This document shows, in pieces, positions 2 to 63,009 of a stretch of 64,000 nucleotides of DNA. The notes under the pieces were generated by a model. The model had not been told where the DNA came from. It ran no database searches and was given only the letters and a program-made list of their open reading frames with translations. Source of the stretch: Tetradesmus obliquus. Taxonomy: Eukaryota; Chlorophyta; Chlorophyceae; Sphaeropleales; Scenedesmaceae. The DNA is taken from assembly GCA_030272155.1 (NCBI GenBank), contig CP126200.1, positions 1,302,001 to 1,366,000 of the forward strand, read 5' to 3'. A program made the translations under genes and the position numbers. Within the stretch, counting starts at the first letter, position 1. The number at the start of each line of letters is the position of its first letter.

Positions 2-2817
2 CAGGAGCTGCCTCATGACCCCATTGTCACGGACGTGCACGTGCCTGGCAGTAACTGGACGCTAGAAGTGGCGCCTGCCAGGGGCTGGGTGCCTGGCTGG
101 CGGCCGTGGGTGCTGGCGGTGGTGGTGATCGTGAGCTGCCTGATTGGGCTGCTGCTGGCGGCCATCCTAGTCAGCGCGCGGCTGCAGACCTGGCTCAAGG
201 TGAACAGCGTTTGAGCGCTGAGTGTTGCGGCTGGCGCAGCGGGTTGCTGCTTTCTGCTGATTTGTCCATCAAATGCGCGTATCGTGTGCGCATGGTTAAC
301 AAACAACACTTTGTAATGTGGTCTGCATGGCTGTTTGTTGGGTATTGGCGGTGGTGGTGATCGTGAGCTGCCTGATCGGGCTGCTGCTGGCTGTAATACT
401 TGTCAGCGCGCGGCTGCAGACCTGGCTCAAGGTGCGCGGTTGTCTGCTTGAACTGCTTGCTTTGCCTGCTGCTGTGCCGCGTCATGTCAGGAGGAACTAT
501 GTCTGCGTTGCTGTGCTATTTGTGTATCACCTGCTGCGTTGCCAGCCCGCCCATAATGCACTCGCCTAGGACAAGGAGTGCATAGACGTGCTGCTGGCTT
601 TTTCAGGTCTCAACGTCTCATTGCCGTCGGCATTGCTGTGTTGAACGCCTGCTGCCCCTTGCTGCGTCTGCAGTCTGCCAATGACGCGCTGGCTTAGGAG
701 AAGGAACACATGGACGTGCTGCTGGCTCGTACACACATCACGCCACAGCACAACCTGCACTGCTGCGTTCAACGCCTGCGTACTGCCTTCTGCTGCCTCC
801 TGCTGCACCTGCAGTCAGCCAATGATGCCCTGGCTCAAGAAAAGGAGCGCATGGACGTGCTGCTGGCTTACTAATGTCAAATCAACCTGCTGCAATCTGC
901 ATTTCTGTGTGTAATGCAGTCTGCCAACGACGCCCTGGCCCAGGAGAAGGAGCGCATGGACGTGCTGCTGGCGCGGCAGTACAACCTGATCAGCTGCGTG
1001 CTGCATCAGGACGAGAGCAGCAAGCCCAAGCGCAGCCTGGAGCACCGCACGCTGGGTGAGCGGCGGGGCTGGGTGGACACACGGCTGCTGCTGCTGCTGA
1101 CGATAGTCTCTGACAAGGCCAAATAGTTTGCTTAGCAGCACCCGTGGTTTTGCAGCTTTTGGGGCATGAGTTGCAGCTTGTCGGCTGCCAAACTCTAGCA
1201 ACATGACAACAATGCGCATGCTTGACCTGCCTAGGTGTCCTGCATGTGCAGCCACGAGCAAAGGACATGTCGCGTGAAGCAATTGAGTAGCATTGGGCTG
1301 ACCGCCGTGTTTCAACCCGCTCCTCATGCGCTGCAGCCAAGATCGAAGACATGCGGCGCGAGATCGGCGTGAGCAGCGGCAGCGCAGGCGTGGACGAGCT
1401 GCAGCTGATCGAGCTCATCGACGAGGGCACCTACGGCAAGGTCTTCCGCGGTGAGCCGGACAGCCGGACACGCACCAAACGGTGTGGATAACTACAGCGC
1501 TGTACGCTATGTAGCTGCTGCAGGGCATCTTGTGGTGCGGCGTCTTCTGCCTGATTCGTTGGGTTACGTCTGCCGCAGGCATGTGGCGTGGCAGCTGTGT
1601 CGCGGTCAAGTCCAAGATCCTTCCCGCCAAAACAACCTCCCACTCCTGTGTAATGCTGCTGCTGCTATCTTGTAACTTCGTGTTTGCAACAGGCATGTGG
1701 CGTGGTAGCTGCGTCGCGGTCAAGTCCATGATCCTGCCCGCCAAGATGAGCGGCGCGGAGAAGCGTGAGCGCATGGCGATCATGGAGGCCGCCATCAGCA
1801 GTGCCATGAACCACCCCAACATCGTGCAGGTGTGCTTGTTTTGTGATCTGAGTGATGCATAGGATCTGAACAATGTATGTTAATCTGCATGGCCATCATT
1901 TGAAATCTTGGAAGTTGCCATCAGCAGCGCCATGAACCACTCCAACATCGTGCAGGTGCGCTTGTCCGAAGTGCATCCCAACCACGGCAGCAGCTAATTG
2001 GGAGTCCTGTAAAGATCACAGGCAGCTTGCTCGCTGAGCTGATCCAAACATACCAAACAGCACTCATGCCTGCAGCTGCTGGAAGTTGCCTCCTTCGCAT
2101 CCAAACGTCTTGCGTCACAGAACTCAAGGAGCGTGATTATCTGTAACAGCATAGCACAACAGCACGCAACAGACAGGCTTTGCGGCACTGTGCTGACTCT
2201 CTTCATGTTGGCTGTCTGTGTGGCTGCTGCTACTGCTCCCCTGCAGACGTACACGTACATCATCAAGCCCTCCAGCAGCAGCATCGGCCACGCATGCTCG
2301 GCATCTGAGTGAGTACAGTCCACTCACACCTCACCAGCGCTGGGCCACACACTTTCCCTCGCGCTGGCTCGTCTGCCTGCGTCAACATCTGTATGTTGTA
2401 CGCGGCAGCGGAAGGGCAGTATGCCTCTCTGCATGGCATGCTTGCCTCTGCTTTGTGCACGCTCTGTCATGCGCCTTGTCACCTTGATGCTGTTGCGCAG
2501 ACACACACTGTGCTGTGCTGTACTGTGCTGTGATATGCTGCAACTTTCTGCTGCAGGGGCAGCCTGTCGTCGCTGGTGACAGCTGCTGAGCTGGCACCCA
2601 GCATGGAGGGGCTTGATGCGCCTGAGGCCAACCACCCCACAGTGCACAACTTCGAGGTGCGAGGTGTTGCTGCTGCTAATGCAATCAATGCCAGCCGTCA
2701 CCTTTGGGACCACACCTTGCAGATAAGAACAACATGAAGCTGGTTGCCTGCTGGCCGGCAAGCCATCAGCTCTTCCAAGGTGTTTCACGCCACTGCTCAT
2801 CAGCTTGGAACACGTAG

Positions 2818-2850
<33 letters not shown>

Positions 2851-3680: not shown

Positions 3681-3726
<46 letters not shown>

Positions 3727-4635
3727 ATCTGCAACCACCGCAGGTGCTGCACAGCGACCTCAAGGTGCGCAACGTGCTGCTGAAGAGTGACGCCTCAGCG
3801 CGCGGCTGCATTGTCAAGGTGGCAGACTTTGGGCTGGCGGTGCGCATGGAATGCTGCGACACGCACGTGTCGGCCTTCCAGGTTGGTGCTGCTTTTTGGC
3901 TGCTGTCCTATGCGTGGAATGCTTCGACTGCATGCACATGCGGTGCGCACGGACTGCTGCGACACGCACGTGTTGGCCTTTCAGGTGCGCGCTGCTTTGG
4001 TTGGGTTGAACTGCACCTAATCCTCTGACTGCATGGTCGGGCGGTGCGCATGGACTGCTGCGACACGCACGTGTCGGCCTTTCAAGTGGGTGCTGCTTGC
4101 ATGTACGGCTTAGTAGCATGTACTGCATGCACTGCTCCACTCTGCATGGACCGCTGTGACACGCACGTGTCTGCGTTCCAGGGGCGATTGCAGCGTGTTG
4201 ACGGCACGTCTGCGGGTATGCTGACAGGTTTTATGGCCTTGCTTGCTGCCTTGTGCATGTATTCACACTGCAGCTGCAGCCGTGCTGTGGTATGCGCAGC
4301 TGCTTGCCTCTGTATCTGCGGCGGTGCACATGGACTGCTGCGACACGCATGTGCTTGCCTTCTGTGATTCTGGGTGCGCATTGCATCGACTGCACCATAT
4401 ACACCGATTGTGTAGACTGCTGAAACCCGCACGTGCCAGCCTTCCAGTGCATCGGCATATTTTTGCTTGTAGACGCTTGTAGGATTATGCTGCCTGGCAT
4501 GCCGCATTGTGTGCGTGTTCTTGGTTTAACTGGCTATGCTGCTGCTGCTGCTACTGCTGCTGCTGCTGCAGGGCACGATGAGCCACATGGCGCCCGAGGC
4601 GCTGCTGCATGGCACGCTGCACCCACCATGTGCTG

Positions 4636-4673
<38 letters not shown>

Positions 4674-5814
4674 AGGGCACGATGAGCCACATGGCGCCTG
4701 AGGCGTTGCTGCACGGCACACCACACTCACCATGTGCTGCTGCCGCTGCTGCTGCTGCTGCTGTTGCCGCTGCTGCTGCTGCTGCTGTTGCCGCTGCTGC
4801 TGCTGCTGCTTCTGCTGCAGGGCACGATGAGCCACATGGCGCCTGAGGCGCTGCTCACGGCTCACCGCAATCGCCATGTGCTGACTGCTGCTGCTGCTGC
4901 TGATGCAGGGCACGATGAGCCACATGGCACCTGAGGCGCTGCTGCACGGCCGCATCAGCAAGGCGGGTGACGTGTACGCCTTTGGCATCTCGCTGTGGGA
5001 GCTGTTCACAGGCGGCCAGGCATACCAGGGTGAGCAGGCGCTGGAAGCTGCTGCATCTTAGCAGTGGAAGTTGCTTCTCCCTGTTTCCTAGGTTATGCTT
5101 TCACATGTTGCTATGGGAGCTGTTCATTGGCGGCCAGGCGTACCAGGGTGAGCAGGCATAACACGTGCACTGACGGTCATGGTAAATACACTGAAGGTAG
5201 TTGTGTGTCTGGTGGTCAGATGTCCTTTTGGCATCTCATTGTGGGAGCTGTTCACAGGCGGCCAGGCGTACCAGGGTGCACGGGCAGCTCATGCATGGCA
5301 ATCATTGTGGTTCTTTCTTGAAAAGATGTCAATCCTCTGGCATCTCACTGTGGGAGCTGTTCACAGGCGGCCAGGCATACCAGGGTGAGCAGGCATCAAC
5401 ACGTAGTTAGTTCAGTTGTGTCAGCTGCCTCTTTAAAAGTAACTTTTGCAGTAATCAACCATGGGTGTACAGGCAAAATAATATGCTGCAGGATATTGGG
5501 TGCCGCTTGACTGTGATGTGTGTTGCATGAGTTGCTTCTCCATGTGCGTTGCTTCCCGCTGGACCCTGCTGCTGCTGCTGCTGCTGCGGTGGCGGCGGCC
5601 GCAGGCATCCCTCGCGCGCTGGTGGGGCCACCAGGTGGTGGTGCTGGGGCTGCGGCCCACGCTAACAGGCGGATCTGTTGCGTCCCGCTCAAACCTGCTG
5701 CTGGTGCTGCTGCTGCTGCTGCCAGGCATCCCTCGCGCCCTAGTGGGCCACAAGGTTGCCGTGCTGGGGCTGCGGCTCATTGCTGACAGATCACCCTGTT
5801 GCATCCCGCTCAAC

Positions 5815-5865
<51 letters not shown>

Positions 5866-8406
5866 CATTCCTCGCGCCCTAGTGGACCACATGGTGGCGG
5901 TGTTGGGGCTGCGGCCCATCGCTGACAGATGAACATGTTGTACCCTGCTCAACCCTGCTGCCACTGCTTCTGCTGCTGCTGTTGCTGCTGCTGCTGCTAC
6001 CAGGGATACCCCGTGCACTCGTGGGCCACAAGGTGGCGGTGCTGGGGCTGCGGCCGACGCTGCCCCCCTTTACCCCGCCAGACTTCAAGGCGCTCATTGA
6101 GGAGTGCTGGGCGCAGGACCCGGAGCAGCGGTAAGGCTTCTGCTGCTGCTGTCATGCATGCACGTGGTTGTGCTGCTGTGGGGCCGTGCTGCTGTGGGGC
6201 CGGGTTGTATATTGTTGACGATGCTCATTGAGGAGTGCTGGGCGCAGGACCCGGAGCAGCGGTGAGGCTTCTGCTGTCATGCATGCACGTGTTTGCGCTG
6301 CTGTGGGACCATGCCATCAGTTGAATGGTATTTCATGGCACCCAGGAACCAGTTCAAGTACATGATAACCCTTCAATGTTTGCTGCCAACGTCGTTTCCG
6401 CTGGCTTTATGCTGCCATTGTGTGCGGCTTGTGCAGGCCCAGCTTTGATGCAATCCTGGCCAGGCTGCTTGCCATGCGGCACGCGCTGGGCCCCGCTGCC
6501 ACGCATTGGTTCTTATGTTAGAACGCTGCTGCTGCTGCTGCTCTGCTCTTTGTTGCTCCCAGGCCCAGCTTCGATGCAATCCTGGCCAAGCTGCTGGCGA
6601 TCAGGCACGCGCTGGGCCCCACTGCCACATATGTCCTTTCATGTTTGGCTGCTGCTGCTCCTGCTGTTGCTGCTGCTCTACCCTTTGCTGCTTGCGCAGG
6701 CCCAGCTTTGACGCAATTCTGGCCAAGCTGCTGGCGATCAGACACGCGCTGGGCCCCGCTGCCTCAATGACACCAGTGTCTGACCGCTGCTGCTGCTGCT
6801 CCGCACTTTGCTGCACGTGCAGACCCAGCTTTGACGCGATCCTGGCCAAGCTGCTCGCCATGCGGCACGCGCTGGGCCCCACTGCCACACATTGGTCTTG
6901 ATGTGTGACTGCTGCTGCTACGGCTGCTGCTGCTGCTGATGATGATGATGATTCTCGTCCCTTTGCTGCTATCAGGCCCAGCTTTGACACAATCTTGGCC
7001 AAGCTGCTGGTCATCAGGCATGCGCTGGGCCCGGTTGCCTCAATGAACAATGTCTGAGCGATGCTGCTGCTGCTGCTCCGCGCTTTGCTGCACGTGCAGG
7101 CCCAGCTTTGACGCAATCCTGGCCAAGCTGCTGGCGATCAGACACGTGCTGGGTTGCAGTGCTTACTTTGTATGTGCATGTGTGGCTGCCGCTGCTTCCA
7201 TTTGCGCAGGCCCAGCTTCGATGCAATCCTGGCCAAGCTGCTCGCCATCCGGCATGCGCTGGGCCCCGCTGCCACGCCGCCCCTGGCACGCTACACGCTG
7301 CAGCACAAGGGGCGTGTGCGGGAGCGCAGCAAGTCTGAAGAAGCACAGCGGCAGGCAGCCAACACAGAGGAGGTGGGGGGGCGCCGTTGCGCACGCGGAA
7401 TGGGACAGAAAGATGATGTATGCCAGTGTATGCCAGATTTTATGTAGCTGTTGTGTGATTGCCATGGTGCTGGGTGGCAAGGCAGCCAGTTGCATGATGG
7501 GGTTGCTTGTGGGCATGTGGTTTCCCCCAAACACGCTGCAGCACAAGGGGCGTGTGCGGGAGCGAAGCAAGTCTGAAGAAGCCAACCAGCAGGCAGCTGA
7601 CACAGAGGAGGTGAGTTGTGATTGAGGGGTTTGTAGCACACAACAGAGCAGCAGCAGGGCCGCCAACCAGGCGGACAATAGTGTAGTCTGCAGCCACCTG
7701 AAAATGTGTAACTAAATCCAGCATGTGCAGTCAGTGTTGTTGATGAGGCTGTGCTCAACAATCATTGTTGTTGCTTCTGCTGCTGCTGCTGCCGCATCGC
7801 AGAACCTGGCGGGCGCGCAGGCGGGCGGCCTGGTGCGCATGTCATCCTACTACGTCAGCAGCAGCTGCAGCTCTGATGACGAGCAGGGGCTGGCTGGCTC
7901 AGCGGCAGCAGCAGCAGGCGGCAGCGGCAGTGGCAGCGGTGCGCCAGCAGGCATCCTTGTACCAAGCAGGAGCGTGACCATGAGCCTGTACCCTACAAAG
8001 GTGGGTCGAGGCAAGTTGGTTGGTTACCCCGTTGTGTTTCCGAAGTACTGTGCGTGCTGCGCGGGTTCTCGCTTCATGTTTGCTGCTTTGATTCTGTATG
8101 CACTGAGGATGCAAAACAGATCATGTGGTTTCCGGCAATCAAAAACATTTTGTCTGCTGCTGTGTTCATTTCTATCAACTCTGACTGGTCAAATGTCAAA
8201 CGTTTGACCTGCAGCTGGACCCAATCAAGGATGAGGAGGACGAGGGCGTGCCATGCTCCCCAGCAGCAGCAGCAGCAGCAGCAGCAGCTCGCCAGCCACA
8301 CAAGGCCAGCGGCGGCGGCAGCAGCAGCAGCAGCAGCAGCAAAACCAAGCCTGCAGGCAGCCCTGAGAGGGATCCTGACATTGAGGAAGGCGGGGCAGGC
8401 TCATGA
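2..8406 (+). CDS. Membrane-anchored RAF-like protein kinase, 5' partial
   Basis: The 5' end lies outside the window. My phase-consistent exons are 2-199, 920-1055, 1337-1450, 1693-1829, 2247-2308, 2557-2656, 2853-2925, 3234-3316, 3744-3881, 4909-5029, 6004-6130, 7210-7372, 7803-8000 and 8215-8406, giving 613 residues. The first exon holds a SNWTLEV-type extracellular tail, like the end of CHASE-like sensor domains, then one transmembrane helix. A short charged helix (AQEKERMD) follows, then a kinase domain from about residue 135: glycine loop DEGTYGKVFRG, VAVKS lysine, VLHSDLKVRN catalytic loop, VADFG, MAPEAL, and GDVYAFGISLWEL. The arginine of HRD is serine, so it is a non-RD kinase; substitutions here are common in algal RAF-like kinases. 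The C-terminal tail is Ala/Ser-rich and acidic. It probably phosphorylates Ser/Thr in response to an external cue; the ligand is unknown. Twelve of its exon edges carry junction echoes and its last exon is partly duplicated downstream. Confidence 0.85.
346..431 (+). repeat. Donor-side echo of transmembrane exon
   Basis: Near-copy of the end of the exon finishing at 199, repeating the VVVIVSCLIGLLLA helix and QTWLK, followed by an intact GTGCGC donor. It lies downstream of its parent. Confidence 0.85.
550..873 (+). repeat. Acceptor-side echoes of coiled-coil exon, 3 copies
   Basis: Three copies of the start of the exon at 920 (SANDALAQEKERMDVLLA), at about 550, 671 and 812. The last two keep a CAG acceptor. 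The first two have a TAG inside the copied codons (CTAGGA / TTAGGA), so they could not be read through. Confidence 0.8.
1577..1632 (+). repeat. Acceptor-side echo of ATP-lysine exon
   Basis: Copy of the start of the exon at 1693 (GMWRGSCVAVKS) with its own GCAG acceptor and a few substitutions. Confidence 0.85.
1914..1955 (+). repeat. Donor-side echo of helix-C exon
   Basis: Copy of the end of the exon finishing at 1829 (AISSAMNHPNIVQ; here Ser replaces Pro), followed by a GTGCGC donor. With the 1577 echo, this exon is echoed on both sides. Confidence 0.85.
3607..3652 (+). repeat. Acceptor-side echo of catalytic-loop exon
   Basis: Copy of the start of the exon at 3744, reading VLHSNLKVRNVL. 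The catalytic Asp codon is Asn in the echo, so its use would give a kinase-dead product. Confidence 0.8.
3940..4446 (+). repeat. Donor-side echoes of DFG exon, 5 copies
   Basis: Five copies of the end of the exon finishing at 3881 (ECCDTHVSAFQ), ending near 3984, 4085, 4181, 4363 and 4446. The first two keep GTGCGC and GTGGGT donors; the third has GGGCGA and the last two are degraded. Spacing is about 100 bp, with a longer gap before the fourth. Confidence 0.8.
4569..4860 (+). repeat. Acceptor-side echoes of APE exon, 3 copies
   Basis: Three copies of the start of the exon at 4909 (GTMSHMAPEALL), with acceptors at 4569-4571, 4672-4674 and 4818-4820. Each is preceded by a CTG run. Confidence 0.85.
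5112..5384 (+). repeat. Donor-side echoes of kinase lobe exon, 3 copies
   Basis: Three copies of the exon end finishing at 5029 (LWELFTGGQAYQ), ending near 5147, 5275 and 5384. Donors are GTGAGC, GTGCAC and GTGAGC. Confidence 0.85.
5602..5925 (+). repeat. Acceptor-side echoes of IPRALVGHK exon, 3 copies
   Basis: Copies of the start of the exon at 6004, with acceptors at 5602-5604, 5723-5725 and 5862-5864. Spacings are 121, 139 and 139 bp. Confidence 0.85.
6219..6261 (+). repeat. Donor-side echo of EECWAQDPEQR exon
   Basis: Nearly exact copy of the exon end finishing at 6130, followed by a GTGAGG donor. Confidence 0.85.
6434..7150 (+). repeat. Acceptor-side echo array of PSFDAILAK exon, 6 copies
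   Basis: Six copies of the start of the exon at 7210 (PSFDAILAKLLAIRHALGP), with CAG acceptors at 6434, 6560, 6697, 6820, 6973 and 7097. The parent acceptor is at 7207. Spacing is 110-153 bp. It is the highest-copy array here. Confidence 0.9.
7528..7610 (+). repeat. Donor-side echo of RERSKSEEA exon
   Basis: Copy of the exon end finishing at 7372 (LQHKGRVRERSKSEEA), followed by a stronger GTGAGT donor than the parent's GTGGGG. Confidence 0.85.
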
Positions 8407-8432
8407 GCGCTGCTGCGCATTTGACTGGTTAA

Positions 8433-20824: not shown

Positions 20825-23705
20825 CGACGTGGTGAAGCTGCACGGCAACGGCAGCGACCGCATGGACGACTGGAACAACCACCGCATGTTCTTCACCACG
20901 CCGCAGGTGAGCCAGCGATGCGTTATGAGCTGCTCAAAGTCTTTAAGAAGGGTTTCCAGCTGCTGCAATCACCCTGCAGGAGTTCCTCGCAGCGCTTGAT
21001 TGCAGCTTGACTCCCGTGCATCACATGTGGCAGCTGTGCTTAGTGCTTATGACTGCGTACACACCCGCCACCACAACCCGCTGACAGCCTACGTGCCATT
21101 GCATGTCCTTTCCTGATTGCAGTGCCTGCAGAACAACCTCAAAACAGGCATACCACCTGGTGTGCCTAATGACAATTGCTTGTGCCCGCCTGCCATCTGC
21201 TATACTGCAAATTGCAGTGCCTGCAGAACGACTTGAAGAAAGGCACCTGCCCTGCACACAAGCTGGTGTGCCTGGTGGTGGATGAGTGCCACAGGGCAAC
21301 CGACACACCCAGTTTGAACCTTTATTGTTGTGTGCCATGTTTGTTGTCCTGCAGTGCCTGCAAAATGACCTCAAGAAGGGCACTTGCCCTGCGCACAAGC
21401 TGGTGTGCCTGGTGGTGGATGAGTGCCACAGAGCAACAGGGGATGCAGCAATGGCCAAGTCGCTGCAGCTGCTGCGGGAGCGCCGCGCCGTGTTCAGGGT
21501 GCTGGGGCTGTCAGCAACGCCTGGCAACTCACATGAGAAGATCAAGGTGCGCAGTTTGGTGTGCAAATCATAGCAGAACATGGACAAGAGCAGCAGAATG
21601 AGTGGCGGTGTGGCAGGGTGCTCCGACTATCAGCATCGCCTGGCAACTCACATGAAAAGATCAATGTGGGCCTACACTGCTGCTGCTAGCCTTTGCGATG
21701 CGCCAAAACACACTCTCACTGGGAAGTCTAGAACAATGTTGCTGCGTGATAAATACATGCAACTGAGACACGCTTGGTGATTTGTTTGCACTGATATGTT
21801 AGTGCACACCGCTGCTGCTGCAAAGCAGGCTGTGGTGCAGAACCTGATAACAACCCGCATCCAGTTTTGGGACGATGCCGATGCTGACGTGGCCCAGCAC
21901 TGCCAGGCATTGCTGCTGCTGCTGATGCCATTTCCAAGCACACAGCTCCCTTCTGATTGCCCAAACCATCGTTTCCCTGCTAACACGACTGTGACCCACA
22001 TGCGTGTGTTTGCACTCTTTTCTTTGCACACCAAAAACAGGCCGTGGTGCAGAACCTGATGATAAACCGCATCGAGTTCAGGGACGATGCCGATGCTGAC
22101 GTGGCCAAGCACTGCCACGTGCGCAGCCGCGAGCAGCGGCTGGTGCCGGTGTGCCAGGAGGGGCGGCTGATACGCCAGCTGCTGCGCAAGCTGATGACGC
22201 CACTGGCGATGCGGCTCAACACAGATGCAGAGGTGGGCGCTGCGGCTCCTGTTTGGGTCATTTGTTAAGCTTGGGAGTTTCTGTGTGCGCTGCATGTCAG
22301 ATCGTACACAAAAGCAAACCGGCAGCCCTCCAGCAAAGCAGGCCCGCACAAAAAAACAGCAAGGTTGGCGGTGTTTGGGACAAGGGTTTGGGAGGCCGAA
22401 AGCCTTAGTTCCAGGAGGGGCGGCTGATCCTGGCACTGCTGCGCAAGCTGACGTCGCCACTGGCGATGCGGCTCGACAGCAACGCAAAGGTGGGTGTACA
22501 TGGGCGCGGCTCCTCCAGTCCGGGCCATGTGTGGGTGCGGTGGAGTGGCTGCTTCATGCTCCATGCTGTTTCACGCTGAAACCTGCTCACAACCCTTACC
22601 TTTGTGTGTGCAGCTGCACGCAAGTTTTACTATCAAAGCAGACGAGCTTTCACGCCTTACATGGTGCAAGATCAGGCCCCCGGCCGGAAACTGTAAACCC
22701 TGTTTGTTGTGTGTGCTGCTGCAGGCGGGCTTCATGTTCCATGCGGACGAGCTGCTCACGCCCTACATGGTGCAAGATGCGCGGTCAAAAGCAGCAGGCC
22801 GCGCAGGCCTCGCAAAAGCAGCCTTCCCTAGCAGCAGCGGCAGGGGCGGCGGCAGGGGCAGGGGTGGCAGCAGTAGCCTGGTTCCCTCATGGGGCGGCAG
22901 GGGTGCAGGTGGCAGGGGTGGCAGCAGCAGCGGTGCTGCGTGGGGGCTTGGGGGTGATGTGAATCTCTTGTGGGAGGGTCTGCTGCTGCTGGCTGCTGCT
23001 GCTGAGGCGTATGAGCAGCTGGGGTCGAGGGGAGGTCTGGATGTGCTGCGCAGTGCGGAAGCTACCGGCAGCCGTGCTGCGTCTCAGCTGCTGCGCAGCC
23101 AGGCGAGCCAGGCGGACTATGCAGACCTGCTGCGGAGGCTGGAGGTGCGTTGTTAGGTGATGCAGGATTGTTTTAAAATGAAAGAGACAGGAGTGGTAGA
23201 TCTGCGGGTCCAGGCGCCACCTGGAGGCTGGATGTGGGTTGCCAGGGGATGCGTGATGCATGGTATGAGCAGCTAGGGTCGAGGGGAGGTCTGGATGTGC
23301 TGCGCAGTGTGGAAGCTACTGGCAACTGTGCCGTGCCTCAGCTGCTGCGCAGCCAGGCGAGCCAGGCGGACTATGCAGACCTGCTGCGAAGGCTGGAGGT
23401 GCGTATGGCGATTGCAGTGTTACGTCACAGAGAGGTGGCAGGTGGAATTGGGGAGGGCGGTAGGTTGTTGCATGTGCGTTGTGCGCCATCTAAAGACCTG
23501 TTGCGGAGGTTCGAGGTAGGTTTGAGAGGTTGGGCTTATTGTGTGTCATGGAAATGTAGCCAGCCGTCATGGCAGGTGTAGGTGCAAGCATGACTGCAGA
23601 TGTGTTTGCAGCTGCTACAAGTGTGGTGCTTTTGCCGGAGGCCACGCTTAGCCAGTAGGAAGTGCAATCACACACATTCATCCTCCTCAAACATAGTCAT
23701 TCAAC

Positions 23706-23862: not shown

Positions 23863-24344
23863 GGGTGCCGATGAGGGCCCGGGCCGTGCCATTGTGTTCT
23901 GCACGTACCTCAAGGAGGTGGCCATGGTGCAGCAGTACCTGAGGCAGTATGAGCCGCTGATACAGGCTAGGTGGGTGGGTGGCGCGTAGTGGGGTGCATG
24001 CGCACATACTTTTGGGCAGCAGCTTATGTATTGACCTTGCAAGTGTTGGTCGCTGCTCAAGGGTTTTCAAGCAGCAGGGCTATGGCTGGCAGGAACATGT
24101 TAGATTCGCCCAAGTCTGCATGGCTGTTCAAACTGACGGTTTCTGGTGCGTACAAACTTGCCCAAATCGTCATCTTGTTGCTGTTCCATATACTAATGTG
24201 TGCTCTGCTGTGATGTGCTTTGTCACCCCACAGGGCCTTCATCGGGCAGGGCAATGCCAGCAGCCGCAGCACCACCAAAAAGGGCGGCAAGAAGGGGGGC
24301 GAGGCGGCAGCAGCAGCAGCAGCAGCAGGCTCCGGCGGCGGCGC

Positions 24345-24380
<36 letters not shown>

Positions 24381-26051: not shown

Positions 26052-26750
26052 GACGGGAGAGAGGTCTGTCACAGGGGTGGGCAAGCTATCGCCCTAGAGC
26101 GAGTCACCTGCCCCTCTTTCAGCTCACATATCATGAGGACAGATTGACCAGCCGCCCTGTTGCAGCACTGGTGGAACAAACGCCGCATCGCTGGTGGCGT
26201 CCAGGTGGATCGCTGGTGGCGTCCAGGTGGAGCTGGCAACACTGGCTCCAGCATGCTGTGACCTCAGCAGCAGCAGTCATGGTGTAGCTGGTCATCACGT
26301 TGTGCCTCACACGTGCAAGGTCCCCAGTTCGGACCTGGGTGGCTGCATTTTGAACTCATCCCATGCACACTACCTATTTTCCCTCCGGTGTAGCTGAAGG
26401 CGGTGTTTGACGCGCAACTGCCATGTCACCTGCCAACTTCTGGGTTTTCCATGCAAGGGAGGGTTCAGGGAGCTGCTGCTGCTGCCGCCCTGCCAGCCGT
26501 TGCATGGCCTGCGTTTTGTAGACGGGTATCTTGCCACATGTTCATGCTGCGTGACGGCCACTGCTGCTGCTGCTGCTGCTGCGCAGGCGCACCTGCGTGC
26601 CAGCAACTTTGACCTGCACAAGGCTGAGGTAGCGATGCTGCCGCCAGACATCACCCCCACACCCACACTGGTGGTACTTCCCGACGCGGAGCAGGTGGGT
26701 GTCATAGCAGCAGTCCCTGCTGCTACTGTTGCTGGTGGTGGTGGTTTATG

Positions 26751-27505: not shown

Positions 27506-27542
<37 letters not shown>

Positions 27543-28242: not shown

Positions 28243-28293
<51 letters not shown>

Positions 28294-30054: not shown

Positions 30055-30103
<49 letters not shown>

Positions 30104-30172
30104 GGGCTTCAGGTTGATGACACATTTGCAGATGCAGCAGAGGTGTGGCAGCAGGAGCTGTCGCTTGGGCAT

Positions 30173-30204
<32 letters not shown>

Positions 30205-36207: not shown

Positions 36208-39200
36208 TCACAGCATACTGTTGTTTATAATAACATCTTAGTGGCAAAACACGTGGCGGGTCAAAGGCAAATTGCTGACACAGTATAATTGGCAGTATCT
36301 TACGATGATGAGCAGCAGCGGCAACAAATAGCAACAAAAGCAAAGCATCATCAGTGGAAGCCAGGACACGCCGCCTGTGTCCTGCTGCTGCAGTGTCTTT
36401 TGCAGTTGGTCAAGATGGGGAGGAAGCTGTTTTCTCCATTGCCTCTGCTCAAGACAAGCACAGTGATAGCAGCAGCAGGCATGACAGAAATGACAGAAGT
36501 GACCAGGACAACAAGCAGAAGTTCACTGCTGCACAGATGCAGCGCTTTGAGCCAGAAGGGTTTGTGCTGGTTGGGCAAGCAGCTGTCAGCAGCCACTTCA
36601 CCCCCAAGACCCCCAAGACCCTAAAACCGGTCAGGTGAGCATGCTGCAACGAGCAGCAAATGCGGGGTTTGACAAGAGGATGACAGCAGTGCACCTGCTG
36701 CTGCAATAGCAGTGCCGGCATATACCTGCCGAGGGATCCGGCAGCTGCTGACAGCAGATCGGGTGATGCATATGGGTCGACATCAGCGGGCCTGCATTGG
36801 CAGTGTACTGCCTAGCCCAGTTGCATGATAACAGCTGGGTTGTAGTTGGCTGCCCTATTGCATCGGCGCAAACAAACGCAACAGATCTGCATGAAAACAC
36901 AGAGGGAGCCGCCCTGCTGCAGCGCAACAAGCCCTTGACACTGCTTTCTTGCATCAACAGGCGCTGCCTGCATCTGCTGCTTCACACTCAACTGAGCCCC
37001 TCGCTATGTCTGCATGCTTTGCTTATTTGCCGACACACAGGGACAAGGATGCAGCTGCCAATGATCCTCGCCTCATGCAGCCAATGCACACCTCCAGACC
37101 CTTAGTAATTATCGGTTTGCTTCCTTGATGCCGCAGGGACAAGGATGCAGCAGCCAACGACCCTCGCTCCATGCAGCCGATGCGCATCTTCGGACTCTCT
37201 ATAACTATCTGCTTGCTTGCCGGATGCCGCAGGGACAAAGCTGCGGCAACCAATGATCGTTGCTTCAAGCCAATGCACACCGCCAGACCATTTTAACCAT
37301 CTGCTTGCTTGCCGCATGCCGCAGGGACAAGGATGCATCCGCCAATGATCCTCGATTTATGCAGCCGATGCGCATCTCTGCAGATGCATTGGTGTACGTA
37401 GACCCGCGCCCGAAAGAAGCAGCAGTAGCAGTGGCAGTCGCTGCCTGCGGCAGCAGCAGCAGCAGCAGCAGCAGCGGTAGCTTTACTGCCAGCTCACCGG
37501 ATCCTCCCATGCTACTGCCTGCTGAATCAGCAGCAGCAGCAGCACGGCTAGGAGGCCTCCCTGGCAGCAGCAGCAGCAGCAGCAGCAGTAACGAAGCAAG
37601 CTCAGGGCTGCAGCTATCCAGCTATCGGATGCATCCACTGAACCAGACGGCTGTGCCGGAGCCAGCTGACTGGTCCCGTGCGAAGCGCCTTGCAATGCGA
37701 CGCAGCAAGGAGATCATGGCCGGAACTGCTTTTCCGTATGATGCAGTCGGCAAGCTGACACTGCTCAATGCGGAAGGGGTGCCCAGGTGAGCGCAAATGT
37801 ACATGCGAAACAGGCAGACAGTGCTGGCATGGGTTTGGGTGGCTGACTTGCAGGAAAGCAAAAGCCCAAAGGAAGCAGCATGCAAGAAGTTGACAGCTGT
37901 AGACATCATATACGGTCACAGGTGTGACTTGCAGACAGGTAATGGAAGTGTCACATGTTTCGATGCAGCGCTGATCTATCAAAGGGGTCTTTAACTGCCT
38001 GTGTGCCATCATCAGCCTTTTAAATTTGACGTTGAACGTGTGTGTGGAGCCTCAAAACCATGATCGCCCACCTCAACTGACAGGGATGTACGTTGCTCAA
38101 ATATCAATAACTTACTGCCTGAATCTCACTCTAACCCCGTTTCCTGCAATGTCATGCATGACATGCAATCTGTTTGTGCTGCTGCAGCGCACACTGCACA
38201 GCCACGTGGATCGGAGATTACGCAGCCATCACAGCAGCGCACTGCATCTACGACAGGGAAACGAAAACCTTCGTGGATCCAAAAACGCTGCGCTTCGAAC
38301 CTGGAGTCTACACCAACGAATTGGGCGTGAAAGTAACTCCTCACAGAGCACACAAAATCTCGGGCATTCAGTATGTGAGCGGATACATCACCGCTCCAGC
38401 GCCGTTCTACCGGTTTTATGACGTGGCAGTTGTCATAACGCAGACGCCCAGGACCACCGGCAAGCTAGGGTTTGCGTGGAGCCCGCAGGGTTTTGAGGGC
38501 ATGCTAAACCACGCTGGATACCCTGGGGAGACGCCGCCGTTTGACAGTACAGGCCTCCGGAGAACTGTGTTCAGGTACGTGGTTTTGCAACAACCGATTT
38601 TTAAATGGCTGATCGGAGTCAGTGCTGCAAGGTAGACCCAGTGAACACTTCACAGGCTACATTGATATCAGGCATGTTGTCAGCTTGTGCATCCACCTGC
38701 CACAGCGCAGCAGTCAGCCAGCAAGCCAGGCACATCATAGCCGCCAGCAGGCCTACACATTACACTGGTTTATTTCAACTGCTGAAGAAGCTGGCGGTTT
38801 TACACTCATGGCGCTATCATCTGGTGGTGTGCATTTGTTCTGCAGGCACGGCACCTGCAACGTCCGCGGCGGCGACGGCGACGGCAGCGACCGCAGGCTT
38901 CGTATAAATAGCTTTACACCAATGGTGCCATCTGTTGCCATCTGCTGCTGCGCTGTTGTGCGGGATAATCTGCAGGTACGGCACTTGCAACGTGCGCGGC
39001 GACGGCGACGGCAGCGACCGCATGCTGCTGGTGCAGTCCGCAAGCAGCAAGCCCTGCAGGGTCATGGAGGTGGGGGAATCTGGCTCAGCCTTGTTTGAGA
39101 TGCGCGGCAGCAACACAGAGTACATGGCCGCTAAATTGTTGCAGCAGCAGCAGCAGCAGCAGCAGCGCAAGCGGGCAGCTGACAAGGCACGCCAGCAGGC

Positions 39201-44202: not shown

Positions 44203-45613
44203 CACCTTGTTATCCTGGCAGCCCCATGCGCACATCCCGATTGCATTGAAAGGCCCAGCAAAGTCAGCCGGCAGCGGAGGCACATTGACCATGTGCACAG
44301 AGCAGAATGTGCTGCAGCGCTCAATGTGGGTATCCGCATCCGGCGCTGCATCTGCAGGCAACATTTGGGCACCAGTGGTGGATGGCTGGACAAATGCTGC
44401 TGTGTGCCTTGTTACGGGTGCAATACCTCCAACAGCTATGTATGAACGACTGTTCTTCGATGGGTGTCACATGTCTAGCCAGCAGGCTGTGCAACCGACA
44501 AACAAAGTGACCCTGTGGCAGCACAGGGTCCTGCAGGTCACATACTGCGAGAATTGTGGATAATGTCGGCCTGTCATCACACCTCCTGAACGTGCCACTG
44601 CTTTGCAGGACCCGGCCATGAAGCACTGCCCAGCACTTCACTTTATCAATTGAAAGAAATGAGGTGCTGCTGCTGCTGCTGCTGCTGCTGCCACCACTCA
44701 CAGTCCTTTGCGCTGGCCTTGTATGCCAGGCAGCCAGCACCACAGCCGGGGTGCACCTTGCCAGACATGGTGGCTGGGTCATAGCTGCACACCTGCAGCA
44801 GCAAGTGTGCATATGTGGCACGGGAAGTTGATGAAGTGCCAACTCCAGGACCCCGGTTGAGTCACAATTCGCGCAACACACAGAATGCTGGAAATGTAAT
44901 GTAGAAGCAGATGATGGGCAGATGGTTGCAGGCTGGCGTCCAACCTGGCACACATCATTACTGGCAACCTATTGCTGCGCACGTCTGCTGCTGAGCCTGC
45001 TCTTGTTGTCGCCAAGCTCTCTCAAGCACAATGAGAAATGTGCCACTCCTGTGTACTGCAGCTGCTGGCTCACCGCCCATGCATTGCAGTCAGGAGTCCG
45101 AAAGCAGCGCTTCTCACACCTGCAGCAGCAGCAACAGCAGCAGCAACAGCAGTAGCAGCAGCAGCAGCAGCAGCAGCAGCATCTCACTCTGAACAATGAA
45201 TACACAAAGGTGTGCTGACAAGCACATGCGCACTAGCTGCAGGCAGAACGGCATGAGCTGGCGGTGCGTCAGGTTGTCAGTTCCGTATGAGCTGGCGGTG
45301 CGTCAGGTTGTCAGTTCCGTATGAGCTGGCGGTGCGTCAGGTTGTCAGTTCCGTATGAGCTGGCGGTGCGTCAGGTTGTCAGTTCCGTATGAGCTGGCGG
45401 TGCGTCAGGTTGTCAGTTCCGTATGGCCGCCCCAGCAGCAATGACCTGGCTGTCTTACACACCAGTATACGACCAAAAACATCATTGAAACACACAGCCT
45501 CACCCTGCTGCGTCAAATACTTTGGGCGCGCCGCCATATGCCAGGCTGGCCACGTCCCTCACCAGCACCCTGCCCACCACCAGGCGGCTGAAGCGACGCA
45601 CCACCACGCCTGC

Positions 45614-49240: not shown

Positions 49241-49292
<52 letters not shown>

Positions 49293-50994: not shown

Positions 50995-51047
<53 letters not shown>

Positions 51048-52119: not shown

Positions 52120-52191
<72 letters not shown>

Positions 52192-54510: not shown

Positions 54511-54568
<58 letters not shown>

Positions 54569-54733
54569 AGCGCACTGATGGCCGTGCGGGCTTCTTCTGG
54601 CGCAAGCCGCCCTGCTTTGAGGGCCACCTGTTCCACCCCTTCTTGTGCGATGACGTCACAAGCGTGGACTGCACGGGTGAGAGAGGGACGCCCTGCCTTT
54701 CTCACGATTATCTGTTCGCTGCACTGTCGCTGC

Positions 54734-54774
<41 letters not shown>

Positions 54775-57168: not shown

Positions 57169-60100
57169 ATGAAGCGTTCAAAGTCGAAAGGAGACGTGAC
57201 AAAAGCGAAAAACAAAGCAACAGCCTTGCGAGACCACGTGCGTGATGCCCTGAAAGCCAGAGCCACGGGAGCGCAGTCACCTGCTTACAACAAGTGAGGC
57301 ACAGCATGGTTCGGCTGGCTCTTGCGTGTTCTCAGCACTAAGCGTGTTTCACACATCATGGTATGTATCTGGACCTCTGCATGCCACCTAATGCCCATGC
57401 CAGCTACTGTAGTGCAGTGCTACTGCTGCCTTCACTCTGCCACCATGCGCAGCACTCAGACCTTGTCCATGTCCTGCAAGAGGCTGCCAACACGCTCATA
57501 TATGGTTCAGCAGTTGACCAAGCCGTTGACCAAGCAAGGTTCGACCGTTGCCTGCAACCATGTGTTTGCACGCGCTGCTGCCCATCTGCAGCTTTGTCAA
57601 GGAGCTGCAGTCGCTGCGCCGCAAGCTGGAAAGCAGCCCAGATGATGCAGCAGCAGAGTTCAGCCTCATTGCTCTCATCCAGGCGTTGACCACCTGCGTG
57701 TCAGCTTTGAAAGAGGGCATCCACGATGCAGTGCTCACCAGCATCCTCAGCATCAGCCTCTGGAGCTGCAGCAAGGTGTGCATGGCTTTTGCGGCAACTG
57801 CGTGACAGCACACAGCAGTTGCGGCAAGGCATGATAGCAGGCAGGGTAGCTGTTGTGGCACGGCAGCGTGCAGCAGCAACAGCAGCTTACCAGGCAGGCA
57901 TTGCAGTGCTGGGCCCTGATGTTCACCTCTGTCTGCTGCTTGTACAAGCTGTTTGCATCACCTGCTCGCCGCTTACTTTCATGTTGTGTTTCCTGTCTAC
58001 CCCTGCCACGTGCTGCTCATCTACATTGTTGCTTCTTGCACTACATTGCCTGCAGGCGGTGCGTGCTGCAGTGCTGAACCTGGTGGTGGAGCTGGTGGTG
58101 TCCAGCAGCACCTTCATCCCCAACAGCATGCAGGTGGGGCCAGCGGCGCTGCGGCGAGCGCAGCAGCAGTGGCAGCTTGCAGGAGCAGCCAGCTCAGCTT
58201 GCAGGCAGCGGCTTGCAGGAATTAGCTTGCATACAGCCTGCAGGAAGTTGTCAGGGCAGCTTGCAGTGAGCAGCAGGGGGCTCCTTGCAGAAAACAGGTA
58301 TTGGCAGCTTGCACAAGGCAATCAGCGGCGGCTTACAAGCAGCAGCTTGCAGGCGGCTTGCAGGACAGCAGTGTGAGCTGCGCGGGTAGCCTGCAGGAAG
58401 CAGTGTGGTGCACCACCATGTACTGCATTGCACTGCCTCCCTCACTGTCCTGTGCTTTGTACTGCACTGCTGTTCTGCCAGGTGTTGATCTTCAACCTGC
58501 TGCCACCACGCGGCAGCCCGCCACTGCAGCCTGATGAGCGCGGCGCTGCTTGGAGCGCTCCGCCGCTGGCTGTGGAGGTGCAGGCGCAGCTGGTGGATGC
58601 CATGGAGCGGGTGAGCGGGTTGTGCAGGCAAATGATCATTCAGCTGCTGCGCATTTGTCATATAGCTATGGTGTGGGCACCGCTGGCAGTGCAGGTGCAG
58701 GCGCAGCTGGTAGATGCCATGGAGCGGGTGAGCGGGAACATAATGTGCACGCAATCGAGCAGCTGCGGCTCTAAAAGTATCGTAGAGCTAACATAGAGCT
58801 ATGGCCAGGGCAATCTGCTGCATTGGTTGTATAAGATGCGAACAACATTCCTCACGGCTTTGGGCCCTGCTCAAAGTTCAGTAAGACATGGACTGTTTTG
58901 GGTACAAGAAGCATGAACTGCGGCACACAAATTTGCAGCACCATGCTTGCATTGGCTCTGTACAACTGCATTATACTCCGTTTCGGTTGGCTAAGGCGGC
59001 ACATAACTGACGTTGCACCGCTGTTTCCTTTCTCAATCTGCATACACGCGATGCATGCTTATGTGTGGTTCAAGCACTAGGACTTGAAGCCTTGCACCAC
59101 AACACTGACATCCTTCGTGGCTCACAGCGCTTGTGCCACAATATCCAAAGCGACACGTGTCATGTAGCTGCACTTTGCTGACTTTTAGGCTGACCTTCAA
59201 CACATGGGTTGATTACTGATTTGACCACTTGCGGCACAGCCGCGTGCAGTACAGATCCATGTTCGCAGCAGGCGGCAGTTCATTAATTTGCACAGCGTTG
59301 CCACGCAGTACCACCAACCAACCACGCAGTACCACCAACCAATATGTGTACACAGGCAGTGCTCTGTGCACATGGCAATGAACAAGGTACTAGCAGTACA
59401 CGATGTTTGCTGCAACGTGCTATTTATGAAGTGGCCGTTCAAGGTTTGGTAGCGCGCGTAACTGCACTAATTATTTGCCCCAGAGCTTCTGCCCGCACTG
59501 CTCGTTACATGACATTGTTCAATAAATGATATGCGGTGATAATGTTGAGGGATTCATGGCTCAGGCCATATGCTATACATCAGTAGCAGTACCTGTATGC
59601 TCCGTAAAACAAATCAACATGCAATGTGTTGTAGAGTAGTACAGTCCCTGTATGATTGAAAAGTGCTGAAGTCTGTATAGCTTTCAGCTAGCAGGGGCGG
59701 AACCAGCAGGTGAAAAGGTAGCTGCAAGCCACTTGGCACGACTGGCGTGCTGTGTGCTGATGCCATGGTAACAGTCGCACCAGAACTGCCACACGAACAC
59801 ATCAGCAGCTGCCTGCCCGAGCTGTTCACGTTCATGTTGATGCTGCTTCTGACCTCCGCGCTCACTTCCTGCCTGCTGTTTGTTTTGTTGCTGCTTGCGT
59901 TGCTGCTGTCTGTCATACCCACCGCAGGCCATCCAGCTGGTGCCTGCGCTGCCGACGCGGCTGCTGCCCATGCTGGTGCAGAACATCCCGCACAAGCTGC
60001 GAGACAGGCCCAGCCAGTGCTTGTTCCTGCGCGCACTCATACTGCTGGCGGAGGGCAAGGTGGGTTGTGATGTTTTATTGTGTTGGTTTCTGAGTCTGCG

Positions 60101-63009
60101 CATCCGTCTGCTGCTGCTAGCCTGTGCCTCTTCCTGCGCGTCGTCGTACTGCTGGCGGAGGGCAAGGTGGTCCCTCAGGGTGAGTTGATGACAAGTATGG
60201 CTGGAGAATTTGCTGCTGTCTACAAGTGCCTCCTTTCTGCAGACGGCCGATGTCGCTTGCTGGCCAACAGCACGGCATGCGTTGCATGCGCAGGTGGCTG
60301 TCCATGGTGTGGTGTTGCATGGGTCACACCCAGACGTGAACGCACAGTTCGGTGCAGTGTGGCGTGCATGGCTGCGGGCTTGTGCTTGCTTTGCCGTGCG
60401 CCACTCACTCTTTTTTGCTTTATGTCTGTCGTGTGCAGGTGGGCAGCAGCCTGCGTGAGGGGCTGCTGCTGGGCGTGGTGGAGCACCTGCTGAGCATCGA
60501 CGCTGACATCAAGTGGCAGGAGATCGTGGACGCGCCAACGGGTGCGCTGCGGCAGCAGCAGCAGCAGCAGCAGCTTATATCACAGCTGAGCACTCGCGGT
60601 GTGTCAGTGCAGGCTGCTTTGTTGCTGTATCGTATTCTGTGACCACACCATGCGTGCCGCTTTTGGGGTAAGTTGCTGCGAGGCCTGTTTCTGCATATCA
60701 TGTGTGCTGTAAAGCGCAAGCCTTTAAGCTGCTCAATATGCCGCCGCTGCTGCTACTGCTGCTGCCAGGCTACGATCACGAGGAGGGCTCCTCTGATGAG
60801 GAGCAGGACGACATCTTTGAGCTGGAGGGCATGGCGCAGGAGCTGGACATCAACGATGCTGCCACAGCGCAGCAGATGCATGAGCAGCAGCTGGCGGCAC
60901 TGCAGGTGGGTGGAGTGGCGAGTGGTGTCCGTTGTTTGTGTTGTGTGTGCCTGTGGATGGCTGCAAGTATGCCCACTGGGGCACAGCAGTTGCTGCTGTT
61001 TGTGGATTTTCTTTTTCGTCAGGCAATGAACACTGTCTGACCACCAGACTTTACAGCAGCCATGCAGCATGCACACAGCCTTTACATCACAATTGCACGT
61101 GCGTGCTGCTTTCTATTTCATCAATGCAGGATCGCTTCCACGACCCAGCCGCCTTTGCAGCAGCCACTCGGCACACTTGCATTGATGAACAACGTGTACA
61201 TGCACAGTTGCTGATGATCTGTGTGCTGCTGCCTGCCTTGCTTCCCTTCAGGACGGCTTCCACGACCCAGCCGCATTTGCAGCAGCCACACAGCACGCGC
61301 ACAGCCTGCGCCGGCTGCAGCAGCAGCTGGCCGCCGCCGCCAACGGCAGCAGCAGCAGCGCCAAGCGGCCGCCAGTGGACGAGACAGCAGACAAGCTGGA
61401 CAGCCTCATGGAGATGACTTTCACGCACCTGCAGTGGCGGGTAAATGCAGGACAGCTGGGGCCGGCGTGGCAGACGATGCTGGCTGCGTTTGAACGCACG
61501 CTGCTGCACGCGCACCGCTGCAAGTTCACGCAGTATTTGTTATTCTTCCTGGCACTGAAGGACCCAATGCGCTGCTGCAGCAGCTTCAGTGCTTGCTTGA
61601 TGAGCTTGCTGAGGGATACCAGGCAGCCGCCGATTACCCGCAGCGCATGTGCAGCGTATTTGGCAAGCTTCCTTGCACGGTTTGCGCTGGCGCCTAAGGA
61701 GCTCGTTGTGGATGTGGCAGGGAAGCTTGCGAGCTGCTGCCAGGAGTATGCGGACTCTGTAATGCAGCAGCAGCAGCAGGGTGGGGCGCTGGGCGGGCGC
61801 AGCAGCAGCAGTAGTGGATTGGTGCTGCTGCAGAGCAGCGGCAGCAGCAGCAGCAGTGCGGCGCCCGGGCCGCTGGCGCAGGTGCAGCGGCACCAGGCGT
61901 TCTACGCGATGGTGCAGGCGCTGCTGTATGTGCTGTGCTATCACATGCAGCCCCTGCTACAGCAGCAGCAGCAGCAAGATGCGCAGCAGCTGGACACGCA
62001 GCAGCAGCAGCAGCAGCAGCAGCAGCTTGCGGCGTCTGTGGAGCAGCTAGTGCGGCAGCAGGTGCTGCCGCTGCTGTCGCACCCGCTGGCCCCGCTCGCA
62101 GTGTGCCACCAGGCAGTTACACACGAGTTTGTGCGGCAGGCGCTGCTGCTGGGCTTAGCAGACGACTCTTGGGAGGCCGCAGCAGTGGAGGCTGTAGCAG
62201 CCCACCAGGCGGCTGTAGCAGCCGCCAGCGCAGCAGCGGCGGCTGTCGTGATTGGCGGAGACGGCGCTGCTGATGCGGCCGGTCAGGTGCGGGGCGTGCT
62301 GCGTCCGCTGGAAGTCTTCTTTCCGTTTGATCCATACCTGCTGCAGCGCAGCAGCAGGTCTTTGGAGCTGGGGCGGAGCTATACCTGCTTCTCGCATGGG
62401 CAACCGCATGTGGCGGGTGATGCGGCGCTGGCAGCAGCAGCAGGGCAGCAGGCTGCTGCTGCTGCTGCTGCTGGTGGGGCAGATAGTGACGGCAGCGGCA
62501 GCGAGAGTGACAGCGAGAGTGAGGAGGAAGGAGAGGAGGCTCTGCTGCAGCGTGCTGCTGCTGCCGCTGCTGCTGCTGCTGGATCTTCGCCGCGCGCGAA
62601 TGGTGTGTCTGAAGACGATGAGGACAGCAGCAGCGGCAGCGGCAGCGAAGATGAAGCTGATGAGCCAGCAGCAGGTGCTGCAGCAGCGGCAGCTAGCGGC
62701 AGGGGCCGGCAGCGGGGCGGCCTAGTGCCAGTTGGCTTTGCAGCAGCAGCAGCGCGGCGCCAGGCTGGGCTGGGCCTTTCAGGGCCGTCACCGCCTGCTG
62801 ACATGATGGCAACATCACTTGTAGCTGCACCATATATGGCTGGCATGGGTATGGGTGGTATGGGCATTAGCTTTAGCCCTGGAGAGGCCGCCATGGCAGA
62901 TCAGATCGGGGCGTCACCCGGGGTGTATGGGGTGTCACCGGGTATGGCGATGCCCATGTCATATACGTATGAGGGGGCGTACATGCAGAACCTGCCCGCA
63001 CGCAGCTAG
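57169..63009 (+). CDS. RRN3: RNA polymerase I initiation factor RRN3 (TIF-IA)
   Basis: Exons 57169-57293, 57592-57775, 58056-58133, 58482-58610, 59928-60059, 60439-60541, 60769-60905 and 61252-63009 join in phase to give 881 residues, against about 650 in human. The N-terminus is basic (MKRSKSKGDVTKAKNK). The HEAT-like body shows AEFSLIALIQALTTCV, RLLPMLVQNIPHKLRDR, LFLRALILLAEGK and LLGVVEHLLSIDADIKWQEI. An acidic loop follows (EEGSSDEEQDDIFELEG), then DETADKLDSLMEMTF. Next come the typical SACAAYLASFLARF block, FYAMVQALLYVLCYHM, and the hallmark LEVFFPFDPYLLQRS. A long Ala/Ser/Glu-rich C-terminus ends AYMQNLPARS. RRN3 bridges Pol I to promoter-bound factors on rDNA and is controlled by growth-dependent phosphorylation, often in acidic Ser-rich loops like the one seen. 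Three exon edges carry echoes. Confidence 0.93.
58160..58380 (+). repeat. Intronic CAGCTTGCAG-type repeats
   Basis: About ten scattered CTTGCA/CTTGCAG motifs in 220 bp just after the RRN3 donor at 58133 (GGCAGCTTGCAGG, CGGCTTGCAGG and similar). Each CTTGCAG resembles an acceptor end. Confidence 0.7.
58676..58727 (+). repeat. Donor-side echo of RRN3 exon 4
   Basis: Copy of the exon end at 58610 (PLAVEVQAQLVDAMER becomes PLAVQVQAQLVDAMER), followed by the same GTGAGC donor. Confidence 0.88.
60118..60167 (+). repeat. Donor-side echo of RRN3 exon 5
   Basis: Copy of the exon end at 60059 (LFLRALILLAEGK becomes LFLRVVVLLAEGK), followed by GTGGTC. Confidence 0.85.
61127..61176 (+). repeat. Acceptor-side echo of RRN3 last exon
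   Basis: Copy of the start of exon 61252 (DGFHDPAAFAAATQH becomes DRFHDPAAFAAATRH) with its own ATGCAG acceptor, 122 bp upstream. Confidence 0.88.

Follow-up and report, generated by a model that had tools for sequence, protein, structure and literature searches.

Rogers in 1989, Gao and Lynch in 2009 and Hellsten in 2011 are said to stand behind the idea that introns can be gained by tandem duplication, the described process closest to the one considered here. According to the available part of a paper on this process, the new intron derives from an AGGT-bearing exon stretch or from an intron-exon unit, and the likeness to the present case is that a short genic stretch with splice signals is duplicated and the coding sequence is kept intact by splicing. 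The same part of that paper also names an 83-bp tandem duplication that lies within an intron and leaves gene structure unchanged. The difference is that in the green alga Tetradesmus obliquus existing introns hold copies of exon edges, and that such copies recur at many edges. A second relative is concerted evolution, in which tandem repeats are kept alike by gene conversion or unequal exchange. Here as there, copies within one gene are closer to each other than to their counterparts in a paralog, but in the alga the partner is an exon under selection, and the copies, which lie in the intron of that exon, are apparently fragments that are not translated. Introner elements, finally, share with the present case a repeated sequence tied to introns but are, in the available part of the source, dispersed copies (PMC9860276), whereas no dispersed blocks of the kind discussed here were among the matches listed for two regions.

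A search of open-licence papers found no report of such exon-edge copies in introns, and the main text of PMC12571836 and PMC7955037, as far as it was available, lacks the word "intron". The copies, here called echoes, matter as a source of intron growth. In the accessible part of a comparison of five green algae, T. obliquus (another assembly) had the longest mean intron, 462 bp (PMC5966456). Each pair of exon and echo moreover places a selected and a free copy side by side, so that neutral rate, splice-site decay and ectopic conversion become measurable in one genome.

How could such echoes arise and stay recognisable? The reading that we favour, and hold to be somewhat probable, is that frequent small tandem duplication together with the tolerance of introns makes the echoes, and that re-homogenisation with their own exon keeps them similar. 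Duplications with units mostly of 90–260 nt are frequent in the alga, an origin to which the anatomy of the copies attests. When a duplicated unit spans an exon-intron border, a complete exon remains and the change is tolerated, so that partial exon edges with their splice site accumulate in introns. The echoes would then be re-homogenised, either through gene conversion in which the exon is the partner or through repeated unequal exchange, with copies lost and made anew; as the contrast between exon and intron parts and the paralogous genes suggest, the exon parts would thereby stay near their own exon while the spacers drift. If homogenisation holds true, introns would be reservoirs able to exchange sequence with exons.

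Gene Models and Exon-Edge Copies

The genome comprises 104,662,953 bases in 17 contigs. The window (W), the whole stretch of 64,000 nucleotides analysed, has a GC content of 0.52–0.64 in 2-kb steps; sequence sampled elsewhere is designated C1–C5, and L034 and L035 are loci of kinase paralogs. Gene models came from an unsupervised gene finder that used the sequence alone and was trained on the window plus 200 kb. In these 264 kb it yielded 321 introns with the donor CAG|GTGNG and the acceptor TGCAG|G, and the models as a whole gave 546 testable exon edges, 128 of them in the window. Four exon calls (C5 2068, 2415 and 11294, and C3 17776) may be wrong and were retained in the totals where they passed the filters. 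Pfam searches with model-joined proteins found a tyrosine/serine-threonine kinase at about 0.9–8.4 kb of the window, a DEAD/Helicase_C protein at about 20–34 kb, which we take to be FANCM-like, and further matches to TBCC, a DUF900 hydrolase and RRN3. A fourth gene with echoes besides those for the kinase, the helicase and RRN3 had no Pfam match and is called peptidase-like, a label of our own. At 27200–32247 the helicase model contains very long exons rich in polyQ and polyA with in-frame coding repeats (TQADVPLAQRQQQL...). (TGC)n tracts ending in CAG often precede acceptors in the window (e.g., at 4537–4572 and 5816–5861), and in one gene-finder run the acceptor model converged on TGC repeats; such tracts may serve as pyrimidine tract and promote slippage. 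By eye only, intron starts appear T/G-rich and intron ends C/T-rich, as do the spacers between echoes.

A local copy is present at 35 of the 128 edges tested in the window, which bears out the preliminary description of about thirty edges in four genes and of a high density of copies. The features listed in this paragraph and the next lie on the plus strand. In the kinase gene the intact exon 1693–1829 has one start echo (about 1579–1630) and one end echo (about 1888–1955). Exon 3744–3881 is preceded by a single start echo that begins at 3610 and measures about 39 nt by eye, and followed by five end copies, ending near 3984, 4085, 4181, 4365 and 4447. Exon 4909–5029 (GTMSHMAPEALLHG...) carries three start echoes of 42 nt each (4572, 4676 and 4821, within 4572–4862), with CCATGTGCTG in the spacer after each, and three end echoes (5098–5384, ending at 5147, 5275 and 5384). 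Three start echoes (5605, 5726 and 5865, within 5605–5923) lie before exon 6004–6130, whose end echo at 6223–6261 is identical in 39 of 39 positions. The highest copy number of any edge, six, is reached by the start echoes of exon 7210–7372 (6437–7160, near 6437, 6563, 6700, 6823, 6976 and 7100); the end echo of this exon at 7531–7610 is identical in 73 of 80 positions of its exon part and has no detectable intron-side homology.

In the helicase gene, exon 21355–21546 has a start echo at 21218–21300, and exon 22053–22232 has both a start echo (about 21841–21905) and an end echo (about 22408–22489). The end echo of exon 22725–23144 spans 136 nt (23263–23398; 127 of 136 identical), and its intron side beyond the donor has no significant homology. 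A further end echo, of exon 24234–24516, lies at 24585–24667, and exon 24947–25108 is followed by five end copies at 25181–25851 (offsets 153, 305, 455, 608 and 743). Exon 32520–32660 has three end copies at 32805–33358 (offsets 239, 452 and 698). In the peptidase-like gene a 96-nt unit is repeated 3.6 times at 37018–37378, which we read as start echoes of an exon of this gene. In the RRN3 gene end echoes of exons 58517–58610 and 59928–60059 lie at 58680–58727 and 60119–60166, and a start echo of exon 61252–63009 at 61127–61174.

Self-comparison of the window, with short tandem repeats masked, gave 63 direct pairs with an offset of at most 1500 nt and 3 inverted pairs, whereas order-3 Markov shuffles of the window, C1 and C2 gave no near pairs. 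The 264 kb contain 166 direct near pairs and 1 inverted. Near pairs number 20, 2, 6, 15 and 60 in five 40-kb blocks on other contigs and 6, 8, 10, 12 and 12 in five more stretches of 10 kb; short-range tandem copies thus occur at ten of ten other sampled sites, in variable number, indicating that the phenomenon is genome-wide but uneven. Across all models a copy lies no more than 1.5 kb away at 91 of 546 edges, namely at 39 of 275 acceptor and 52 of 271 donor edges. Echoes at both edges are found in 14 of 252 internal exons, 3.8 being expected under independence, and therefore cluster in some genes. An assembly artefact appears unlikely from the sequence, since numerous substitutions separate the copies and their spacers are often unrelated, which simple duplication of reads would hardly produce. 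Among side observations, a perfect 34-nt tandem repeat at 45253–45425 of the window (5.1 copies, 100%) is probably very recent given the identity of its copies, and two adjoining 10-kb stretches (L017 and L018, C3:1000001–1020000) have GC contents of 0.491 and 0.681.

Anatomy of the Duplications and Position Relative to Exon Borders

The preliminary description held the geometry to be strict in every case it checked, start copies lying upstream and end copies downstream of the intact exon. This applies to 27 of the 35 window edges, at which all copies are on the intron side, and not to the remaining window edges, which are mixed or have copies on the other side. Overall the numbers are 62 of 91 and 29 of 91, respectively. 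Many of these 29 are, in our reading, echoes called as exons by the gene finder, and a few are repeats within long exons (534, 519 and 501 nt). The anatomy supports the origin proposed there, a tandem duplication whose two breakpoints lie in the exon and in the intron, respectively, and which leaves one intact exon. At the 46 edges with a nearest anchored echo the offset is 88–298 nt (88–154 at 29 edges), the exon part is 24–209 nt long, and the spacer measures at least 41 nt in 45 cases. The offsets have their minimum at 88, 28 of the 46 fall at 99–154, and a gap follows up to 186. In the array of L035, young copies extend through the whole unit including its intron part.

Does the process aim at exon borders, as had been suggested with a replication or repair process in mind? 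Coverage by tandem copies was profiled around the junctions of 380 introns in 314 kb. On the intron side it is 17.4% at 0–10 nt from the junction, 10.2% at 60–70 nt and 10–14% deeper; on the exon side it falls from 18.1% at the edge to 4.4% at 110–120 nt, and in intergenic sequence it is 6.2%. For pairs with at least 80% identity the intron side has 7.6% at the junction, 3.4% at 60–70 nt and 3.4–5.2% thereafter, the exon side falls from 8.7% to 1.5%, and intergenic coverage is 1.7%. Edges are thus favoured, but only about 1.5-fold over intron interiors (1.5- to 2.2-fold at 80% identity or more), and targeting is not supported. A breakdown of the 166 near pairs in 264 kb gives 88 in contact with a junction, 48 with at least 90% exon sequence, some of which stop at a splice site, 17 confined to introns and 13 in intergenic sequence. 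Disruptive duplications within exons are expected to be removed by selection. The edge enrichment would in part be expected because the exon copy, held by selection, stays recognisable longer, and border targeting is not needed to explain it.

Dispersal was checked by DNA searches with two echo regions, in which 40 of 1339 and 40 of 205 candidates were scored. The matches listed belonged to simple repeats, to exons of paralogous kinases and to one short repeat that is dispersed in the genome and follows the last helicase copy; with simple repeats skipped, echo blocks appeared elsewhere only as the paralogous kinase exons among the matches listed for these two regions, so that a dispersed element is unsupported. 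The short dispersed repeat is a non-simple stretch of about 35–50 nt (25834–25893 and about 26056–26090) directly after the last helicase copy; it is found again at many sites of the genome, with more than 60 entries by hand count among the matches listed.

Echoes in Paralogous Kinase Genes

Among the matches listed, the DNA search revealed a related kinase gene on C4 (L034) and, on C14, a single exon (L035), and a protein search revealed more kinase relatives. In L034, end echoes accompany the counterparts of exons W 1693, 3744 and 6004, and start echoes the counterparts of 3744 and 4909. In L035 the 6004 exon is flanked by six start echoes and one end echo, and the 4909 exon is preceded by one start echo. 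The extents of the exon parts are often similar. For the 4909 start echoes they are 42, 42 and 42 nt in the window, 43 and 49 in L034 and 38 in L035; for the 6004 start echoes 58, 51 and 59 in the window and 56, 58, 52, 52, 52 and 52 in L035, L034 having no echo here; and for the 1693 end echoes 51 in the window, where an insertion shortens the alignment and the start GCATGGC is the same by eye, and 59, 58 and 59 in L034. Breakpoints are not always shared: the 6004 end echoes extend over 39 nt in the window and 41 in L034 but 60 in L035, the 3744 end echoes over 45, 52 and 38 nt in the window and 47 in L034, and the 3744 start echoes over 72 nt in the window, a value that runs into TGC repeats, and 34 in L034. 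Exon borders of the window gene and L034 agree at the compared edges except at the 6004 start, where the exon of L034 starts further upstream. Both genes have CCATGTGCTG or CATCATGTGCTG in the same place of the spacer that follows the 4909 echoes (W 4620, 4726 and 4871; L034 5137 and 5219); the 16-nt form has a single occurrence in the window and none in the five blocks. Shared breakpoints and shared spacer motif suggest that at least the 4909 start echo is older than the split of the genes.

An old unconverted echo should, by reasoning, show its own and the other exon's state about half and half. At sites where the exons of the window gene and L034 differ, 21 echoes of 6 edges match their own exon 145 times, the other exon 23 times and neither of the two 30 times. 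Neither the sites nor the echoes are independent, two echoes have no deciding site, and four of the five window copies at the 3744 end were used. By edge, own and other states number 19:2 at the 4909 start, 24:10 at the 6004 start (window echoes only), 28:0 at the 6004 end, 22:9 at the 1693 end, where the counts per echo are weak (4:3, 7:1, 6:2 and 5:3), 52:2 at the 3744 end and 0:0 at the 3744 start. That echoes appear to follow their own exon in paralogous genes was not part of the preliminary description, and in echoes older than the gene split such an excess points to homogenisation. We infer homogenisation from these states and from the contrast between exon and intron parts, not from conversion tracts seen directly.

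The main alternative is repeated new duplication at preferred breakpoints, which would also yield own-exon states, and both processes may take place. The window end echo of exon 6004–6130 looks fresh, having, besides its fully identical exon part, most of the first 50 intron bases identical, and it lies in nearly the same place as the L034 echo. In L035, hardly any difference is seen between the spacers of four of the six start echoes. The unshared breakpoints at the 6004 end, the 3744 end and the 3744 start also speak against the favoured reading.

On the minus strand of L035, the more distant paralog, at about 1718–1815 of the reversed locus, an exon begins inside what corresponds to the window exon 1693–1829, with a weak copy upstream, possibly an intron gain or loss beside an echo. 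Two loci about 96 kb apart (L036, C1:5609801–5611200, and L037, C1:5705401–5706800) were chosen as recent duplicates for rates in introns and exons; being 100% identical over 1399 nt they gave no rate and represent either a very recent duplication or an assembly duplicate.

Exon Parts Are Better Kept Than Intron Parts

Echoes have preserved their exon part far better than their intron part, a further point that the preliminary description did not make. If both parts had the same age, the intron would by reasoning be expected to be only about 1.5 times as diverged. Intron-side homology was scored beyond 8 nt past the junction, with the 95th percentile (7.8) of 205 null pairs as cut, in the 63 of 73 anchored echoes that kept the splice dinucleotide and had a spacer of at least 20 nt. 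Of the 63 echoes only 30 show such homology, as do 19 of the 36 whose exon divergence is below 9%. At edges with a single echo it is found in 5 of 23 and, with exon divergence below 10%, in 2 of 11; three duplications are entered twice among the 23 and one of them among the 11, and some misses, two of them among the 11, score 7, just below the cut. At C1 10885, for example, 63 of 65 positions of the exon part are identical and the introns are unrelated. For 18 edges with aligning introns (filtered for an intron score of 12 or more, 25 or more aligned sites and a divergence of at most 0.45, pairs with non-aligning introns thus being excluded), the exon parts have 97 mismatches against 143.5 expected (176.2 with Jukes-Cantor correction). 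They fall below expectation at 14 of the 18 edges, and at four (C1 38502, C1 34651, C5 2068 and C5 7009) the exon part exceeds the divergence predicted from the intron.

Could plain neutral tandem duplication without homogenisation suffice, the contrast being due to selection on one copy and to faster mutation and length change in introns? Such an explanation would fit the codon-position ratio of 2 described below, the nearly flat intron profile beyond 60 nt, and edges at which exon and intron parts seem about equally old (C4 38563 and C1 38502) or the exon part older (C5 7009). Yet a frozen copy gives at most about a 1.5-fold contrast, significant intron homology is lacking at 9 of the 11 slightly diverged single-echo edges just mentioned, and the third positions of the echoes, though free, diverge by only 17%. 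Neither does it predict that paralogs share breakpoints and a spacer while their echoes have own-exon states. We therefore regard it as a serious but rather doubtful account.

Homogenisation could also be imagined on a larger scale, as genome-wide rewriting of old intron echoes from their own exon, with a reach that ends at the splice junction, possibly templated by RNA or cDNA, and with echo mutations also fed into the exon. This stronger version of the favoured reading seems unlikely to us.

Coding Constraint and Splicing

Are the echoes themselves under constraint? A free echo beside an exon that changes at third positions only is expected to give a third-position ratio of 2. In the 73 anchored echoes of 48 edges, mismatches to the exon number 111, 103 and 219 by codon position, a ratio of 2.05 (95% CI 1.56–2.74, bootstrap over 48 edges); it is 2.00 with the nearest echo only and 2.14 in the window only, and all comparisons together give 193, 199 and 414 mismatches. 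The ratio of nonsynonymous to synonymous differences is 1.00 over 118 comparisons, where a neutral echo should give 1.28, or 1.07 with an assumed GC-to-AT bias of 2.5. The splice dinucleotide (GT or AG) is retained in 64 of 73 anchored echoes, and about 85% retention would be expected, calculated by hand from a divergence of 8% per site. Read-through meets an in-frame stop in 29 of 46 cases, only 6 of the 46 being open with the frame preserved, and the offsets leave remainders of 0, 1 and 2 upon division by three in 13, 18 and 15 cases, without preference for multiples of three. Together, the ratio near 2, the nearly neutral ratio of nonsynonymous to synonymous differences, the dinucleotide retention and the stops indicate that, within error, the echoes as a set mutate freely without coding constraint. 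A hint of constraint comes from the array of exon 7210 (9 nonsynonymous and 32 synonymous differences) and from the echo-echo counts, against which the whole set stands. Multi-echo arrays have a larger third-position excess, both between real exon and echo (89, 99 and 236) and between echoes (130, 117 and 270); array pairs are not independent, and a synonymous change on the exon branch enters the count anew for every echo of an array.

That echoes may feed alternative splicing, as had been proposed, accordingly finds no support in these sequence comparisons, and any effect on splicing would be a side effect. The related idea of a selected function, the echoes serving as splice decoys or as alternative exon edges, could draw on the retained dinucleotides, on the third-position bias among array echoes and on splice-site scores (6.03 for echoes and 6.39 for real sites; in 30 of 46 nearest echoes with the dinucleotide kept, the echo scores at least as high as the real site). 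Neutral decay, though, predicts about the same retention, and neither the unconstrained set nor its stops and lack of frame bias suit such a role, making this very unlikely. Slightly less credible still is exon-limited copying via RNA (cDNA or transcript-templated repair) with similarity stopping at the splice junction: by eye similarity ends about 5–14 nt from the junction in many of 22 pairs with exon parts 91–97% identical, in agreement with the intron-side homology test, but there is no direct trace of RNA, and plain tandem duplications run through the intron in the L035 array and at W 25108.
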